From Brevibacillus sp. DP1.3A (lineage in GTDB: Bacteria; Bacillota; Bacilli; Brevibacillales; Brevibacillaceae), in NCBI RefSeq assembly GCF_013284245.2, contig NZ_CP085876.1:582501-646500 (forward strand): 64,000 nt of DNA. The letters run 5' to 3'. Numbering within the stretch: position 1 is the stretch's first letter; each line of letters starts with the position of its first letter. The notes under the pieces are model-generated. The model was given only the letters and a program-made list of their open reading frames with translations, was not told the origin of the DNA and did no database searches. This document shows, piece after piece, positions 6,261-20,984 of this stretch. The translations under genes were made by a program, and so were the position numbers.

Positions 6261-7511
6261 ATGCTAGATTTTTTGCGTAATCAAGACCCACAGGTGATGG
6301 AAGCCATTCAACTGGAGCTCGGAAGACAACGCGACAAGATTGAGCTGATTGCTTCTGAAAACTTCGTAAGCCGCGCAGTTATGGAAGCAATGGGAACCGT
6401 TTTGACGAACAAATACGCAGAAGGATATCCAGGCCGCCGCTATTACGGTGGTTGCGAGTATGTGGATATCGTGGAAAACATCGCGCGCGACCGCGTAAAA
6501 GAAATTTTTGGCGCAGAGCATGCAAACGTACAACCACACTCCGGTGCTCAGGCGAACATGGCTGTATACTTCACAATTCTTCAGCCAGGCGACACTGTAC
6601 TGGGAATGAATCTGTCCCACGGTGGTCACTTGACGCATGGTAGTGCAGTAAACTTCTCCGGTACTCTGTACAATTTCGTTGATTATGGTGTAGACGAAGA
6701 TACTCACCTGATTAACTATGAAGTTGTTCGTGCAAAAGCATTGGAGCACAAGCCAAAACTGATCGTTTGTGGTGCGAGTGCGTATCCGCGTACGATTGAT
6801 TTTGCTAAGTTCCGTGAGATCGCGGATGAAGTGGGCGCGTACTTCATGGTGGACATGGCGCACATCGCTGGTCTGGTTGCGGCAGGTCTGCATCCAAACC
6901 CAGTACCACACGCGCATTTCGTTACTTCTACGACGCACAAGACTCTGCGTGGACCACGTGGTGGTTTGATTTTGTGCAAGGAAGAGTTCGCGAAAGGCAT
7001 CGACAAATCCGTGTTCCCAGGCGTTCAAGGTGGTCCGTTGATGCACGTGATCGCAGCAAAAGCGGTTGCTTTCGGCGAAAACCTGCAACCAGAGTTCAAG
7101 GATTACGCAGCTCGCATCATCAAGAATGCGCGTGCATTTGCGGAAAGCTTGACTGCTGAAGGTCTGACGCTTGTTTCCGGCGGAACGGATAACCACCTCG
7201 TATTGATTGATGTGAGCAAAATCGGCCTGACAGGTAAAGTGGCTGAGCATCTGTTGGACGAAGTAAGCATTACCACGAACAAAAATACCATTCCTTACGA
7301 TACACAAAGTCCGTTTGTTACAAGCGGTGTGCGCATGGGTACGCCAGCAGTAACAAGCCGCGGTTTTGATGAGGAAGCGATGAAGGAAGTAGCGGCGATT
7401 ATCGCTCTGACATTGAAAAATCCAGAGGATGCTGCGAAGCACGAAGAAGCACGTCAACGTGTGGCAGCTTTGTGCCAACGTTTCCCTATGTACGAAGGCT
7501 TGAATATCTAA
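6261..7511 (+). CDS. glyA: Serine hydroxymethyltransferase
   Basis: PLP enzyme converting serine and tetrahydrofolate to glycine and 5,10-methylene-tetrahydrofolate, the main one-carbon source. It has 416 residues, the normal bacterial length. Visible signatures include [34 protein letters not shown] and the PLP-lysine motif [15 protein letters not shown] strong AAGGAGGAG lies 9 bases before the ATG. Codon use avoids TTA, CTA and TCA, leaving a 404-codon open frame on the opposite strand that is only a shadow. A terminator follows the stop codon. Confidence 0.98.
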
Positions 7512-7525
7512 TCAAGGCAACGAGA

Positions 7526-7568
7526 AGCAGACCCAGTGGAAATTTTCCTATACGGGTCTGCTTTTTTT
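7526..7568 (+). terminator. Terminator of glyA
   Basis: GCAGACCC (7527-7534) pairs with GGGTCTGC (7554-7561), with one more A-T pair outside, followed by seven T. Confidence 0.85.
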
Positions 7569-7626
7569 CCACTTCCCGGCAGTTGATAGGGATCGAGGAC
7601 GCGAAAAAGTACGAAGATTAGGCAAA

Positions 7627-7655
7627 TTGACGGAGCCACTCTCACCAGCTATTAT
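7627..7655 (+). promoter_or_regulatory. Sigma-A promoter of upp
   Basis: TTGACG (7627-7632) and TATTAT (7650-7655) are spaced by 17 bp, giving a leader of about 30 bases to the upp ATG. Confidence 0.75.
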
Positions 7656-7692
7656 AGAAAGGATGTATTGATAGGGAAACGGAGGAAATGAC

Positions 7693-8322
7693 ATGAGCCG
7701 TGTATATGTGTTTGACCATCCGCTGATTCAGCATAAAGTTACGTATATTCGTGACAAGAATACAGGGACCAAGGAATTTCGCGAACTGGTAGATGAAGTG
7801 ACTACTCTGATGGGCTATGAAATTACCCGTGATATGCCTTTGGAGCAGACCACCATCGAAACACCAGTGGCTACCTGTCAGTCGAATGTAATTGCTGGTA
7901 AAAAAGTAGGGTTGGTACCGATTCTGCGTGCTGGTCTTGGTATGGTTGATGGCCTGATGAGGCTGATTCCTGCTGCCAAAGTAGGACACGTAGGTCTTTA
8001 CCGTGATCCGGAAACCCTGCAGCCTGTTGAGTATTATGTGAAGCTGCCATCCGATGTTGCTGAGCGTGAGTTGATCGTAACTGACCCAATGCTGGCGACT
8101 GGTGGTTCTGCTGTTGCCGCTCTTACTGCTTTGAAAAAACGTGGAGCAAAAAACTTGAAACTGATGTGCCTCATCGCTGCTCCAGAAGGTATTAAGCTGG
8201 TTCAGGACGAGCATCCTGATGTAGATATTTACGTAGCGGCTGTTGATGAATATTTAAACGACCATGGATACATCGTGCCAGGCTTGGGCGATGCGGGTGA
8301 CCGCTTGTACGGCACGAAGTAG
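7693..8322 (+). CDS. upp: Uracil phosphoribosyltransferase
   Basis: Pyrimidine salvage enzyme converting uracil and PRPP to UMP. The 209-residue length and the motifs are those of the bacterial Upp family: [14 protein letters not shown] near residue 75, the PRPP-binding loop [13 protein letters not shown] near 127-139, and the C-terminal uracil-binding segment [12 protein letters not shown]. The start has a GGAGG-type site in GAAACGGAGGAAATGAC. The epimerase gene follows after 18 bases, as upp and the 2-epimerase gene do in several Bacilli, so both are probably transcribed from the promoter at 7627. Confidence 0.97.
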
Positions 8323-8340
8323 TCGGAGAGGGAAAAACGG

Positions 8341-9489
8341 ATGAAAACTGTAAAAGTAATGACGGTATTCGGCACTCGTCCAGAAGCGATCAAAATGGCG
8401 CCACTTGTCCATGAATTGAACAAGTACAGCGGGCAGATCGAATCGGTCGTTTGCGTGACGGCCCAGCATCGTCAAATGCTCGATCAGGTTTTGGACATTT
8501 TTGATATTCAACCAGACATTGATTTGAACATCATGAAGGATCGCCAAACGCTGGTGGGTGTGACCACTCGCGCATTGGAGAGTCTGGATGAAACGATGAA
8601 GGAAGTAAAACCGGACATTGTCCTCGTACACGGGGATACGACAACCACTTTTGTTGCGAGTCTGGCTGCTTTTTACAATCAGGTAGCGATCGGACATGTG
8701 GAAGCGGGCTTGCGCACATGGGACAAGTACTCGCCGTTCCCGGAAGAGATGAACCGTCAGTTGACAGGTGTAATGGCTGACCTTCACTTCTCTCCGACCA
8801 ATGGATCGGCTGACAATCTTCGTCGCGAAGCAAAGCCGGAAAAGGACATCTACGTGACAGGAAACACAGCGATTGACGCGCTGAAAACAACGGTTCGCGA
8901 GGATTACACGCATCCGGTGCTTGATCGCGTAGCTGGTCAGAAGCTGGTGCTGATGACGGCACACCGCCGCGAAAATTTGGGCGAGCCGATGCGCCGTATT
9001 TTCCGTGCAGTTCGAAGACTGGTGGACGAGCATCCGGAGATTGCTGTTGTGTATCCGGTTCACTTGAATCCTGCTGTACAAGAAGTAGCGCAGGAGATTC
9101 TCGGAAACCACGATCGCATTTCGTTGATCGAACCATTGGATGCCCTTGATTTCCACAACTTCGCTCGTCGTGCCCATCTCATCCTGACCGATTCTGGCGG
9201 GGTGCAGGAGGAAGCGCCGTCTCTTGGCGTACCAGTCCTGGTTCTGCGCGATACGACAGAACGTCCTGAGGGGATTGAAGCAGGCACGTTGAAGCTCGTG
9301 GGAACTGACGAAGAGCAAGTTTATGCAATGGCAAAAGAATTGCTGACCAACCAAGCGGCTTACGATGCAATGGCGCACGCTGTCAACCCGTACGGGGATG
9401 GCGAGGCTTCCCGACGTATCGTAGAAGCAATCCTCTATCATTTTGGTTTGCGAGCTGAACAACCAGAGCCTTTCCAACCAGGTCAGTAA
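8341..9489 (+). CDS. wecB: UDP-N-acetylglucosamine 2-epimerase (non-hydrolysing, MnaA/WecB)
   Basis: Interconverts UDP-GlcNAc and UDP-ManNAc, supplying ManNAc for wall teichoic acid linkage units and secondary cell-wall polysaccharide. The 382-residue product has the GT-B fold signatures FGTRPEAIKMAPLV at the N-terminus, VHGDTTTTF near 94, GHVEAGLRT near 117, and the C-terminal DSGGVQEEAPSLGVPVLVLR with RPEG. The Bacillus name is mnaA (yvyH). Its product would feed TagA, encoded at 51448. The gene directly downstream encodes a surface protein with SLH domains, which typically bind ManNAc-containing polymers. A terminator follows. Confidence 0.95.
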   Translation: MKTVKVMTVFGTRPEAIKMAPLVHELNKYSGQIESVVCVTAQHRQMLDQVLDIFDIQPDIDLNIMKDRQTLVGVTTRALESLDETMKEVKPDIVLVHGDTTTTFVASLAAFYNQVAIGHVEAGLRTWDKYSPFPEEMNRQLTGVMADLHFSPTNGSADNLRREAKPEKDIYVTGNTAIDALKTTVREDYTHPVLDRVAGQKLVLMTAHRRENLGEPMRRIFRAVRRLVDEHPEIAVVYPVHLNPAVQEVAQEILGNHDRISLIEPLDALDFHNFARRAHLILTDSGGVQEEAPSLGVPVLVLRDTTERPEGIEAGTLKLVGTDEEQVYAMAKELLTNQAAYDAMAHAVNPYGDGEASRRIVEAILYHFGLRAEQPEPFQPGQ

Positions 9490-18877: not shown

Positions 18878-18892
18878 TGAGAATGGTTATCA
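18878..18892. promoter_or_regulatory. Fur box upstream of the AraC-type regulator
   Basis: TGAGAATGGTTATCA matches the 7-1-7 Fur inverted repeat TGATAATNATTATCA at 12 of 14 defined positions. It lies 55 bases before the ATG at 18948. A TAGAAT at 18895-18900 could be the -10 box just downstream, so bound Fur would block the promoter. Confidence 0.65.
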
Positions 18893-18947: not shown

Positions 18948-20936
18948 ATGAACGTGGATGATCATATTTTTCTATGGAATCAGGCAAGTGTACGATTACA
19001 TGATGTACGGCATATCGTCATGCGAGCCGGAGAGCAGCTGCGATCCTATCAATTGCCGGCTAGTGCCTTTCTATTTTCGGTGAGAGGCAGTGGCCTGATT
19101 CGTCTTGACGGGAATGTGCATGCTATCAAGAATTGCTATATGGCCCATGCTGGCAAAGGTACATACGTGGATATCGAGGAAATAAAGGGTGAGCTGGAAT
19201 ACTATCTGATTTTGTACAAAGCTCATTTGCCGTTGCCTTGTCGGCAGGAACTGCTACGTTTACTGGAGAAAACACAACCGTTTCACATCCAATACGGCTT
19301 TACCCCCATGCATCAGGCAAATGTATTTGTAGCAATATCACGTATGCAGCAAGCGTGGAATCAGAATGGCAACCTGGACAAGCTGCGAGCCAAGGCCCTG
19401 CTATATCAACTCGTATGTGAGCTAATGGCACAGATGCAGTCGCAAGGAATCGGGGTAACGGTACCCAATTTGGTCGTTCAGGCCGTCAGGTATATCGAGG
19501 AGCATTACGCAGAGACTTTCACCCTCGATGATCTTTCCGCGCTCTTAAACTGCAGCTCCCGATCCCTGCAACGCACCTTTAAAGCCCAGCTAGCGGTCGG
19601 CCCTATCGACTATCTGATTCAGGTGCGCATTCAAAAAGCGCAGGAACTGCTGCGTCAAACGAATTTGGGACTAAAAGAGGTAGCGGAATCAGTAGGTTAT
19701 ACAGACAGCTATTATTTCAGTCGTATCTTTAAAAAATATACAGGCTTCTCCCCGACTGCGTATAAGGTAAATCCGCTGACATCGGAAATTCGTCGCCAAA
19801 GTCCATTACTCTTGTCGCGATATTCCATTGCTGGTCAAAAGCTGTGGAAATATAATGATCACATTGAAAATGAAAATCAAAGTCACCTACGAACAAGAGA
19901 TGGGGGAGCCGTACCGATGTATAAGAGTACAAAAGCGATGCTGGCGCTGAATCTGATGCTTAGCCTTACCTTGCTGCTCGGAGCCTGCTCAGCTGGCGGA
20001 ACGAATTCCAGTAATTCGGGGAGTACAACCACTGGCGCTACGAGTCAGGTAGCAACGCAGTCCAATACAACGCAATCTAGTGCGAATCAAGAAGTGAAGA
20101 AAAGCGAGACCCGTACAATCAAGCACATGAAAGGCGAGCTGACGCTTGATTTTAAACCAGTCAGAATCGCTGTGCTGGACACACAATATGCAGATCAAAT
20201 GATTGCCTTGGGCGAACTGCCAGTAGGTAGTGTTATCACAACGGGGGACGGTACGAAGTTTCCAGAGTATCTCATGGACAAGCTAAAAGATGTTCACGTA
20301 CTTGGAACGAAGGACGAGCCCAATTCAGAAGCAGTCGTGGCTATGGAGCCTGACTTGATCATATGCACGGAGTTTCAAGATAAAATCTATGATAATCTAT
20401 CCAAAATCGCCCCAACCATCATGTTTAATCGAAACGAAGACTGGCGTGAAACACTGATTACCTTCGGAAAAATTCTCGAAAAAGAACAAGAAGCTGAGCA
20501 GATCGTAAAGGACTACCAAGAGAAAACGAATAAATTGAAAACAGAGCTCGCAACCAAACTCAAGGGTGAGTCTGTCGCACTTATTCGTCCTCGTGACAAT
20601 GCCATTCGACTGCATACAGTTGAACATCGTACGGCTGCTATCTTGTATTCCGATTTGGGACTGACTCCTCCCAAGCCAGCGATGGATAAATCAGATACAG
20701 CTACGATGATTTCTCTGGAAGTGTTGCCAGAGGTAAATGCCGATCATTTATTTGTCGTAACGGACAAAGCGAATCAAGCATTAACGGACGAGTACAAGAA
20801 CAGTTCCATTTGGAAAGGGCTAAAAGCAGCCAAGGAAAATAAGGTGTACGAGGTTAACACAACCGTGTGGATTGCCTATTACGGCCCGATTGCCATTAAC
20901 AATATCGTCGATGAAATTGCAGAGGCACTTCTATAA
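18948..20936 (+). CDS. AraC-family iron/siderophore regulator, continuous in frame with a siderophore-binding lipoprotein
   Basis: The frame is open for 662 residues. Residues 1-150 look like an AraC sensor (cupin-like) domain, and residues about 180-277 are a complete AraC DNA-binding domain with two helix-turn-helices (LDDLSALLNCSSRSLQRTF and LKEVAESVGYTDSYYFSRIF). A linker of about 48 residues follows, then from Met324 a lipoprotein signal and a periplasmic-binding-type domain (see the entry at 19917). B. subtilis Btr (YbbB) is a known AraC-binding-protein fusion, but it has no internal export signal. Two readings are possible: a true membrane-tethered fusion, or two genes whose separating stop codon was lost. 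I favour mainly separate expression of the second half, because the linker DNA holds a promoter, a Fur-like box and a ribosome site. A Fur box lies upstream of the first start. Confidence 0.8.
   Translation: MNVDDHIFLWNQASVRLHDVRHIVMRAGEQLRSYQLPASAFLFSVRGSGLIRLDGNVHAIKNCYMAHAGKGTYVDIEEIKGELEYYLILYKAHLPLPCRQELLRLLEKTQPFHIQYGFTPMHQANVFVAISRMQQAWNQNGNLDKLRAKALLYQLVCELMAQMQSQGIGVTVPNLVVQAVRYIEEHYAETFTLDDLSALLNCSSRSLQRTFKAQLAVGPIDYLIQVRIQKAQELLRQTNLGLKEVAESVGYTDSYYFSRIFKKYTGFSPTAYKVNPLTSEIRRQSPLLLSRYSIAGQKLWKYNDHIENENQSHLRTRDGGAVPMYKSTKAMLALNLMLSLTLLLGACSAGGTNSSNSGSTTTGATSQVATQSNTTQSSANQEVKKSETRTIKHMKGELTLDFKPVRIAVLDTQYADQMIALGELPVGSVITTGDGTKFPEYLMDKLKDVHVLGTKDEPNSEAVVAMEPDLIICTEFQDKIYDNLSKIAPTIMFNRNEDWRETLITFGKILEKEQEAEQIVKDYQEKTNKLKTELATKLKGESVALIRPRDNAIRLHTVEHRTAAILYSDLGLTPPKPAMDKSDTATMISLEVLPEVNADHLFVVTDKANQALTDEYKNSSIWKGLKAAKENKVYEVNTTVWIAYYGPIAINNIVDEIAEALL
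19828..19856 (+). promoter_or_regulatory. Internal sigma-A promoter within the AraC-lipoprotein reading frame
   Basis: TTGCTG (19828-19833), a 17-bp spacer and a perfect TATAAT (19851-19856) lie in the linker-coding DNA. The predicted start near 19863 would make a transcript beginning about 54 bases before the lipoprotein ATG. Confidence 0.65.
19865..19879. promoter_or_regulatory. Fur-box-like element at the internal promoter
   Basis: TGAAAATGAAAATCA matches the 7-1-7 Fur consensus at 11 of 14 defined positions and shares 11 of 15 bases with the upstream box at 18878. It sits just after the predicted start of the internal promoter, a typical repressor position. Confidence 0.5.
19917..20936 (+). 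CDS. Iron-siderophore ABC transporter substrate-binding lipoprotein (internal start in the AraC frame)
   Basis: Starting at the ATG at 19917 gives 339 residues with a basic N-terminus, a hydrophobic core and the lipobox LLGAC (Cys at residue 24), followed by a Ser/Thr/Asn-rich linker and a helical-backbone binding-protein domain of the FhuD/FeuA/BtuF fold (IAVLDTQYADQMIALG, EAVVAMEPDLIIC, YYGPIAINNIVDEIA). GGGGGAG (19902-19908) stands 8 bases before the ATG. It should deliver ferric siderophore to a permease, but no permease or ATPase gene is adjacent, so it probably works with a transporter encoded elsewhere. It shares its frame with the AraC gene upstream; a terminator follows. Confidence 0.78.
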   Translation: MYKSTKAMLALNLMLSLTLLLGACSAGGTNSSNSGSTTTGATSQVATQSNTTQSSANQEVKKSETRTIKHMKGELTLDFKPVRIAVLDTQYADQMIALGELPVGSVITTGDGTKFPEYLMDKLKDVHVLGTKDEPNSEAVVAMEPDLIICTEFQDKIYDNLSKIAPTIMFNRNEDWRETLITFGKILEKEQEAEQIVKDYQEKTNKLKTELATKLKGESVALIRPRDNAIRLHTVEHRTAAILYSDLGLTPPKPAMDKSDTATMISLEVLPEVNADHLFVVTDKANQALTDEYKNSSIWKGLKAAKENKVYEVNTTVWIAYYGPIAINNIVDEIAEALL

Positions 20937-20944
20937 ATCATTCA

Positions 20945-20984
20945 AACCGTCACTCTCTTCTCCTAAGAGCAGTGACGGTTTTTT
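20945..20984 (+). terminator. Terminator after the lipoprotein gene
   Basis: AACCGTCACT (20945-20954) pairs with AGTGACGGTT (20971-20980), and an inner CTCT/AGAG pairing extends the stem. A run of six T (20979-20984) follows. Confidence 0.88.

Follow-up and report, generated by a model that had tools for sequence, protein, structure and literature searches.

The window, that is, the whole stretch of 64,000 nucleotides of Brevibacillus sp. DP1.3A analysed here, contains a 662-codon frame in which an AraC-type regulator and a siderophore-binding lipoprotein are joined by a linker (Table 1). The first part is assigned to the AraC/XylS family by its two-helix-turn-helix domain HTH_18 (Pfam, 5e-20). 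The second part has both sequence marks of a siderophore-binding lipoprotein, a lipoprotein signal and a Peripla_BP_2 domain, the closest solved relatives of the latter being YfiY, SirA and FeuA. The order of the parts, with a DNA-binding domain, a hydrophobic segment and a sensor domain, would fit that of the transmembrane one-component regulators. The genes upstream of the frame are read as biotin genes, a thiolase gene and an ATP synthase I gene lie downstream, and no transporter or ABC permease gene was present among the inspected neighbours. The whole frame is followed by a strong intrinsic terminator, absent from one scan that permits short loops only, and the terminator scan of the window listed no plus-strand terminator-like site between the AraC part and the lipoprotein part. 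The original prediction had placed the frame, the promoter, the Fur-like box, GGGGGAG, the internal ATG and the lipobox, and every one of these positions was confirmed; the direct repeat, the Fur box ahead of the full-length start and the terminator were absent from it.

Table 1. Features of the fused gene and its linker (positions in the window).
Feature	Position	Strand	Details
Fur box ahead of full-length start	18878..18892	+	TGAGAATGGTTATCA, 12/14; stronger than linker box
Full-length frame	18948..20936	+	662 aa, ATG 18948 to stop; AraC regulator, linker, signal/lipobox, siderophore-binding domain
HTH_18 domain (AraC-type)	19533..19766	+	residues 196-273; Pfam 5e-20
Putative AraC operator	19792..19832	+	19-nt unit twice (19792-19810, 19814-19832), 22-bp spacing
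Internal promoter-like site	19828..19856	+	TTGCTG (19828-19833)-N17-TATAAT (19851-19856); family conservation
Fur-like box, in frame	19865..19879	+	TGAAAATGAAAATCA, 11/14; among weakest in family (9/77 score 11)
Shine-Dalgarno-like site	19902..19908	+	GGGGGAG, then 8 nt, then ATG 19917
Nested lipoprotein frame	19917..20936	+	339 aa; internal ATG = codon 324; layout shared with relatives
Signal peptide/transmembrane segment and lipobox	19917..19988	+	LLGAC ending at Cys347
Peripla_BP_2 siderophore-binding domain	20166..20852	+	residues 407-635; Pfam; YfiY 3tny top among solved chains
Intrinsic terminator past whole frame	20944..20984	+	-22.4 kcal/mol, z -6.7

The single elements of the window linker, judged alone, are no better than chance. 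The internal −35 hexamer has 3/6 consensus matches, and the site is unlisted by the promoter scanner, which requires 4/6. In 2000 synonymous shuffles of the window frame, the Fur score of the linker was matched by 32% and its promoter score by 47%, and the direct-repeat pattern was present in 7%. As the Fur and promoter scores were near chance, the relatives of the gene were examined, and the case made here is that of the comparison with them. Ahead of the full-length frame, a Fur box scoring at least 12/14 was found between −250 and +150 nt around the frame opening in 63 of the 77 family members described below.

The original prediction had left room for a recent loss of the stop codon between two genes, for which a comparison of the linker in other Brevibacillus was proposed. 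This comparison revealed no stop between the two parts, the frame being open across linker and lipobox in all seven genomes found to carry a 93–100% identical copy. Within the genus sample (26 genomes), five others hold a 95–96% copy with an intact frame, and 14 have no match at 1e-60. The 93% copy of genome G013 (L139, 7965-9974) is open through linker and lipobox and breaks later, inside the binding domain; other genomes hold intact copies. The source genome itself has two further full-length copies of 34–36% identity and identical layout, as well as unfused AraC-lipoprotein neighbours. At the level of the class, 43/398 genomes matched at 1e-70, and the listed matches spanning nearly the whole query were all without an internal stop; in the phylum sample 5/398 genomes matched, every one belonging to the window's own class, the counts per genome being lower bounds in both searches because the three best candidates per genome were scored. 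A scan of genome contigs gave three loci (Brevibacillus formosus, fortis and porteri), and no match was found among plasmid records.

Altogether, 83 distinct frames with both domains were collected, and a lipobox lies between the domains in 77 of them, an intact lipobox being part of the definition of these members; the six without it come from L017, L018, L033, L037, L097 and, as a second frame of 506 codons, L026. The full-length fusions reach down to 31% identity with the query and occur in several families of the class, and the 77 were reduced to 44 representatives less than 80% identical. In an audit that did not demand an open frame, 114 distinct HTH ends were followed, in loci gathered by similarity to the window protein and so not a blind sample. 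Eighty of them reach a lipobox in frame (one, L031, breaks soon after it), and the succession of HTH end, stop and nearby lipobox was found only in two, L114 and L115, which are unfused comparators of another AraC group. The remaining 32 comprise lone regulators and fusions of the soluble or signal-less kind. The joined frame appears to be old, common to many genes and no accident. A recent stop-codon loss or a sequencing error in strain DP1.3A is refuted by the seven genomes and the 77 fusions open through the linker; nothing in its favour came to light, and its probability is practically negligible.

The same linker was then considered as protein and as control DNA. In 77/77 members the highest-scoring Fur-like box within the linker has at least 11/14 matches, and it is perfect in 30; in all 77 it lies in one codon phase, encoding D-N-H-Y-Q or similar, and its distance to the internal start takes eight values, every one in frame. 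At 13 stand-alone lipoprotein loci of the window clade the phases of the Fur box are 6/6/1, which is the picture expected without a frame constraint. When each of the 44 representatives was compared with 200 synonymous shuffles, perfect Fur boxes were found in 22 (shuffle mean 3.6, maximum 8), a promoter score of at least 8 in 32 (mean 7.0, maximum 15) and the direct repeat TCY-N19-TCYATTG in 20 (mean 0.73, maximum 4). The Shine-Dalgarno sequence, present in 41/44, was weakly above the shuffles (mean 34.4, maximum 40) and is the weakest element.

In ten ortholog groups, synonymously variable codons with an invariant amino acid numbered 26/275 in the linker block and 1831/4800 elsewhere (totals that omit the group 'A wide', which overlaps group A), which makes synonymous change four-fold lower there than in the rest of the gene. 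Amino-acid variability was similar in both (68/358 and 1015/5975, respectively). Low synonymous change together with similar amino-acid variability indicates that in the linker block the DNA is conserved more strongly than the peptide. Additionally, an internal start with a Shine-Dalgarno sequence was identified in 72/77 members (67 ATG and 5 GTG), 18–25 residues ahead of the cysteine; all 72 have Lys or Arg among the first eight residues, and the median peak hydropathy of their signal segment is 2.37 over 15 residues. In the other five, the Shine-Dalgarno sequence is missing by the rule used. The internal features expected of a gene with two products, namely a promoter, a ribosome site and a start that are conserved, were all found, the ribosome site giving the weakest signal. 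Four signal-less relatives (L136, L137, L138 and L141) keep the operator and the TTG-N17-TATAGT hexamers within the frame, and in them the Fur half-sites have moved apart, and neither the internal start nor the signal is left; because of these four, the constraint on the linker DNA may partly serve something else. The locus of one of them, L137, has at 7073-8870 (reverse-strand numbering) an open frame of 598 codons; its second half encodes a lipoprotein binding domain, and its front, about 300 open codons, has no match to the AraC query.

The second unit of the direct repeat, our putative AraC operator, overlaps the −35 hexamer of the internal promoter-like site. The half-site GTCGCNAAANTCCAT at the 22-bp repeat reaches 25/26 in six window orthologs. 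The repeat scores 20 in L036 (L140), 21–23 in the four signal-less relatives and 20–22 in 11/11 loci with a split arrangement, in which the lipoprotein has a gene of its own near a soluble fusion of AraC and binding domain; in these split loci the repeat precedes the Fur box of the lipoprotein gene, outside the likely coding part. L141 has a second site, with a score of 20, near its companion lipoprotein gene, and three further loci of the clade with a stand-alone lipoprotein gene (L100-L102) yielded no operator at the threshold used. Shuffled loci gave 39 sites scoring at least 17 in five times the sequence. Searched genome-wide, a looser pattern of the repeat had a single match in the source genome, that of the linker, and none in the reverse-read control, and a still looser one had one match each in 10/12 other genomes, five inside the frame (in the genus) and five before a stand-alone lipoprotein gene (in family f4, which may be Paenibacillus-like); since the patterns were built from these loci, matching there was expected, and the absence elsewhere in the genomes was not. 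G020 and G064 had no match to the genome-wide pattern and have a weaker site in their loci. By these comparisons the repeat appears tied to the lipoprotein promoter, whether in coding DNA or outside it, and the single matches suggest that the main target of the regulator may be its own inner promoter.

Other patterns were tried as well. The general pattern GTCCAT-N14..18-GTCCAT was at chance genome-wide, with 12 matches and 12 in the reverse-read control, and at a spacing of N16-17 three of its four matches are found between a regulator and the corresponding lipoprotein part. The idea that stand-alone lipoprotein genes are fossils of a nested linker was rejected, as their Fur phase varies and TTG-N17-TAnnnT is missing in 11/13 stand-alone loci, as is the repeat TCY-N19-TCYAT in 13/13. 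What nested and stand-alone loci have in common is the operator and the Fur box, and their promoter sequences differ.

The surroundings of soluble and nested fusions were compared in five genomes, the classes being set by frame length (500–629 aa for soluble size and 630 or more for nested size) and not by reading of the linker. A same-strand stand-alone binding-protein gene was found within 1 kb of 29/37 soluble-size and 2/23 nested-size fusions (Fisher p 1e-7), and within 2.5 kb of 30/37 and 4/23, respectively; the count in the source genome used the 37 of 66 matches that cover the binding domain and omitted a fusion-sized frame at 5968342, of which the AraC part alone matched the query. The window gene has no such lipoprotein gene within 2.5 kb. 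The order stand-alone lipoprotein gene, gap of about 0.8 kb and soluble fusion recurs in L126-L135 and L098. In six genomes (L072, L078, L080, L084, L087 and L088), two nested-size full-length matches stand head to tail, a few hundred bases apart. One paralog, in L002, is directly followed by a putative esterase gene (PF00756; 3444-4220), which recalls the siderophore esterase next to Btr-type loci.

Phylogenetic trees were built for each domain. In the AraC tree, the nested family forms one group (99/98), apart from the Btr-like fusions and the unfused AraC genes of the source genome, when three very long sequences (L116_858m, L116_3020m and L131_601m) are omitted; with them, the nested label needs five changes. 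The nested label is scattered over the binding-domain tree, where it needs ten changes, nine of them forced by well-supported branches, for which a single origin of the whole fusion was not supported. Since the AraC domains group together and the binding domains do not, the downstream binding-domain cassette seems to have been exchanged. Within the window clade, the binding-domain tree places the stand-alone lipoproteins as sister to the soluble regulator fusions (100/96), and the window gene adjoins this pair with weak support (86/51); in the AraC tree the soluble fusions share a clade with the window gene and L036 (97/94). As signal-less soluble fusions sit among nested genes in these trees, which do not include true Btr, a change from nested to soluble is suggested, and it looks like one nested gene was duplicated and its two tasks divided, a direction that depends on few nodes. 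The original prediction had regarded the locus as intermediate between two separate genes and a fusion of the Btr type. As stated, this was not supported: the nested AraC domains group apart from both the Btr-like and the unfused AraC genes of the source genome, and the trees of the window clade, built without true Btr, suggest a change from nested to soluble.

The claim that the locus can make two products was supported by the comparison, in which the internal signals appear to be under selection at the DNA level and the full frame is kept open. We consider it probable that this one gene gives both a membrane-anchored AraC regulator and a transport lipoprotein, the latter by means of the internal operator, promoter and start. 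From the order of the elements we infer the following course of events. Transcription from an upstream promoter under Fur control and translation of the whole frame would yield an AraC-type regulator, most likely with its AraC domain inside the cell and its siderophore-binding domain outside. This anchoring of the full-length product is the least sure step of the mechanism. In the signal-bearing members examined, the AraC domain is encoded only within the fusion, and the working regulator would consequently carry the hydrophobic segment. The AraC domain would bind the 22-bp-spaced repeat within its own coding sequence, over the −35, and, once the presumed ligand, a ferric siderophore, is sensed, it would activate the internal promoter, whose −35 is poor. 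When iron is plentiful, Fur would shut the internal promoter and repress the upstream one too. The internal transcript, translated from the internal ATG, would give an ordinary siderophore-binding lipoprotein that serves an ABC importer whose genes lie elsewhere, so that both products would share one ligand-binding domain.

Other explanations were weighed against this mechanism. If only the full-length fusion mattered, the control elements inside the frame (promoter, Fur box and start) would be leftovers of an old two-gene state, as could be thought from the near-chance scores of the single window elements and from five relatives that lost signal and start and kept the fusion; in four of these a relic linker persists, and in one there is none. 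Leftovers would decay, yet synonymous change is four-fold lower in the linker block of ten ortholog groups than elsewhere, the number of perfect Fur boxes is six times that obtained by synonymous shuffling, and each matching genome has the operator once, at a specific position; we regard this explanation as highly improbable. It is also very unlikely that two products are made and the full-length protein is inert, the AraC gene merely being without a stop and the lipoprotein being the sole purpose. A signal segment should indeed make a fusion to a cytoplasmic regulator awkward, and unfused AraC-lipoprotein neighbours do exist in the source genome. However, the HTH is well conserved and in these loci encoded only as a fusion, and the AraC frame of the linker is open in 44/44 representatives though in 28 of the 44 both alternative frames contain stops and, when the bases of the linker are shuffled, the frame stays open in 6% of trials. 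The representatives were themselves picked as open frames, a demand of which the audit of HTH ends is free.

In a variant of the two-product mechanism, the lipoprotein machinery would process the full-length protein at the internal lipobox, so that the two routes give one and the same mature lipoprotein, and a membrane-bound AraC stub would remain as the regulator. All 77 signal-bearing members have an intact lipobox, as their definition demands, and we know of no example of lipobox processing after a cytoplasmic domain of 320 residues; this variant seems possible but rather doubtful.

Two products from one gene, with the regulator anchored in the membrane, remains our preferred reading, and a wider one can be drawn from it. 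Genes of this kind may be widespread autogenous nested genes of the Bacilli, in which a transmembrane AraC sensor carries, within its own frame, its sole strong genomic operator together with the promoter, Fur box and start of the lipoprotein, the AraC-linker part having one origin and the binding domain having been exchanged repeatedly; for this wider reading we see the chances as evenly balanced. With such exchange, new siderophore specificities would arrive with sensing and uptake already coupled. Some tens of codons would be doubly read, serving both as a tether in the protein and as a complete bacterial control region; this double reading would have been kept in dozens of diverged genes, whose regulatory DNA and protein sequence would have evolved under a shared constraint. 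The arrangement would moreover hint at how certain Bacilli maintain numerous siderophore receptors, each with a switch of its own: there are three nested-type genes in the source genome, and six, six and seven nested-size frames in three other genomes. Labelling the whole frame as one AraC regulator would probably overlook such receptors.

Finally, the arrangement was compared with known systems. In a literature search with poor coverage of subscription journals no description of the nested arrangement was found, which is no proof of its being unpublished; Btr-type fusions, membrane-bound AraC regulators and in-frame short products are each known, and it is their combination that was not met with in the literature so covered. 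Btr (YbbB), the bacillibactin transport regulator, joins, as the window protein does, an AraC domain to a FeuA-like binding domain. In contrast to Btr, the linker of the window gene contains a signal with a lipobox, an operator-like repeat, a promoter, a Fur-like box and a start, and, unlike Btr-type loci, it has no adjacent companion lipoprotein gene. Soluble proteins of the Btr type have no export signal between the two parts, whereas here signal and lipobox occupy residues 324-347. The Btr equivalog model NF049932 gave the window protein 158.6 bits, below the cut-off of 900, and it aligned over nearly the whole length of L119, a 531-aa fusion of the source genome, with a score far below the cut-off. 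A published counterpart of the soluble fusion with its companion gene is found in B. pumilus, for which the gene table of PMC3896406 places ybbB upstream of feuA and gives the esterase gene ybbA as the following entry, all three under Fur.

The lipoproteins YfiY, FeuA, SirA and YfmC resemble the nested product in the Peripla_BP_2 domain, the n-region with Lys or Arg, the hydrophobic core and the lipobox, but the nested lipoprotein is encoded within the frame of another gene. ToxR, TcpP and CadC are transmembrane one-component regulators. TfoS of Vibrio belongs to the AraC family and is membrane-bound (PMC7564644). All four have a DNA-binding domain, a membrane segment and an extracytoplasmic sensor, and would be alike to the window protein if the proposed topology is right; here, however, a transport binding protein would act as the sensor and a lipoprotein signal as the membrane segment, and the gene would give a further product from within. 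Bacterial N-terminal proteoforms are also known to arise from in-frame internal starts (PMC11005335), and they are, like the products proposed here, two differently located proteins of one frame. The difference with respect to these proteoforms is that the short product of the window gene would own a regulated promoter and an operator in the translated linker, and that the two products would have different tasks.
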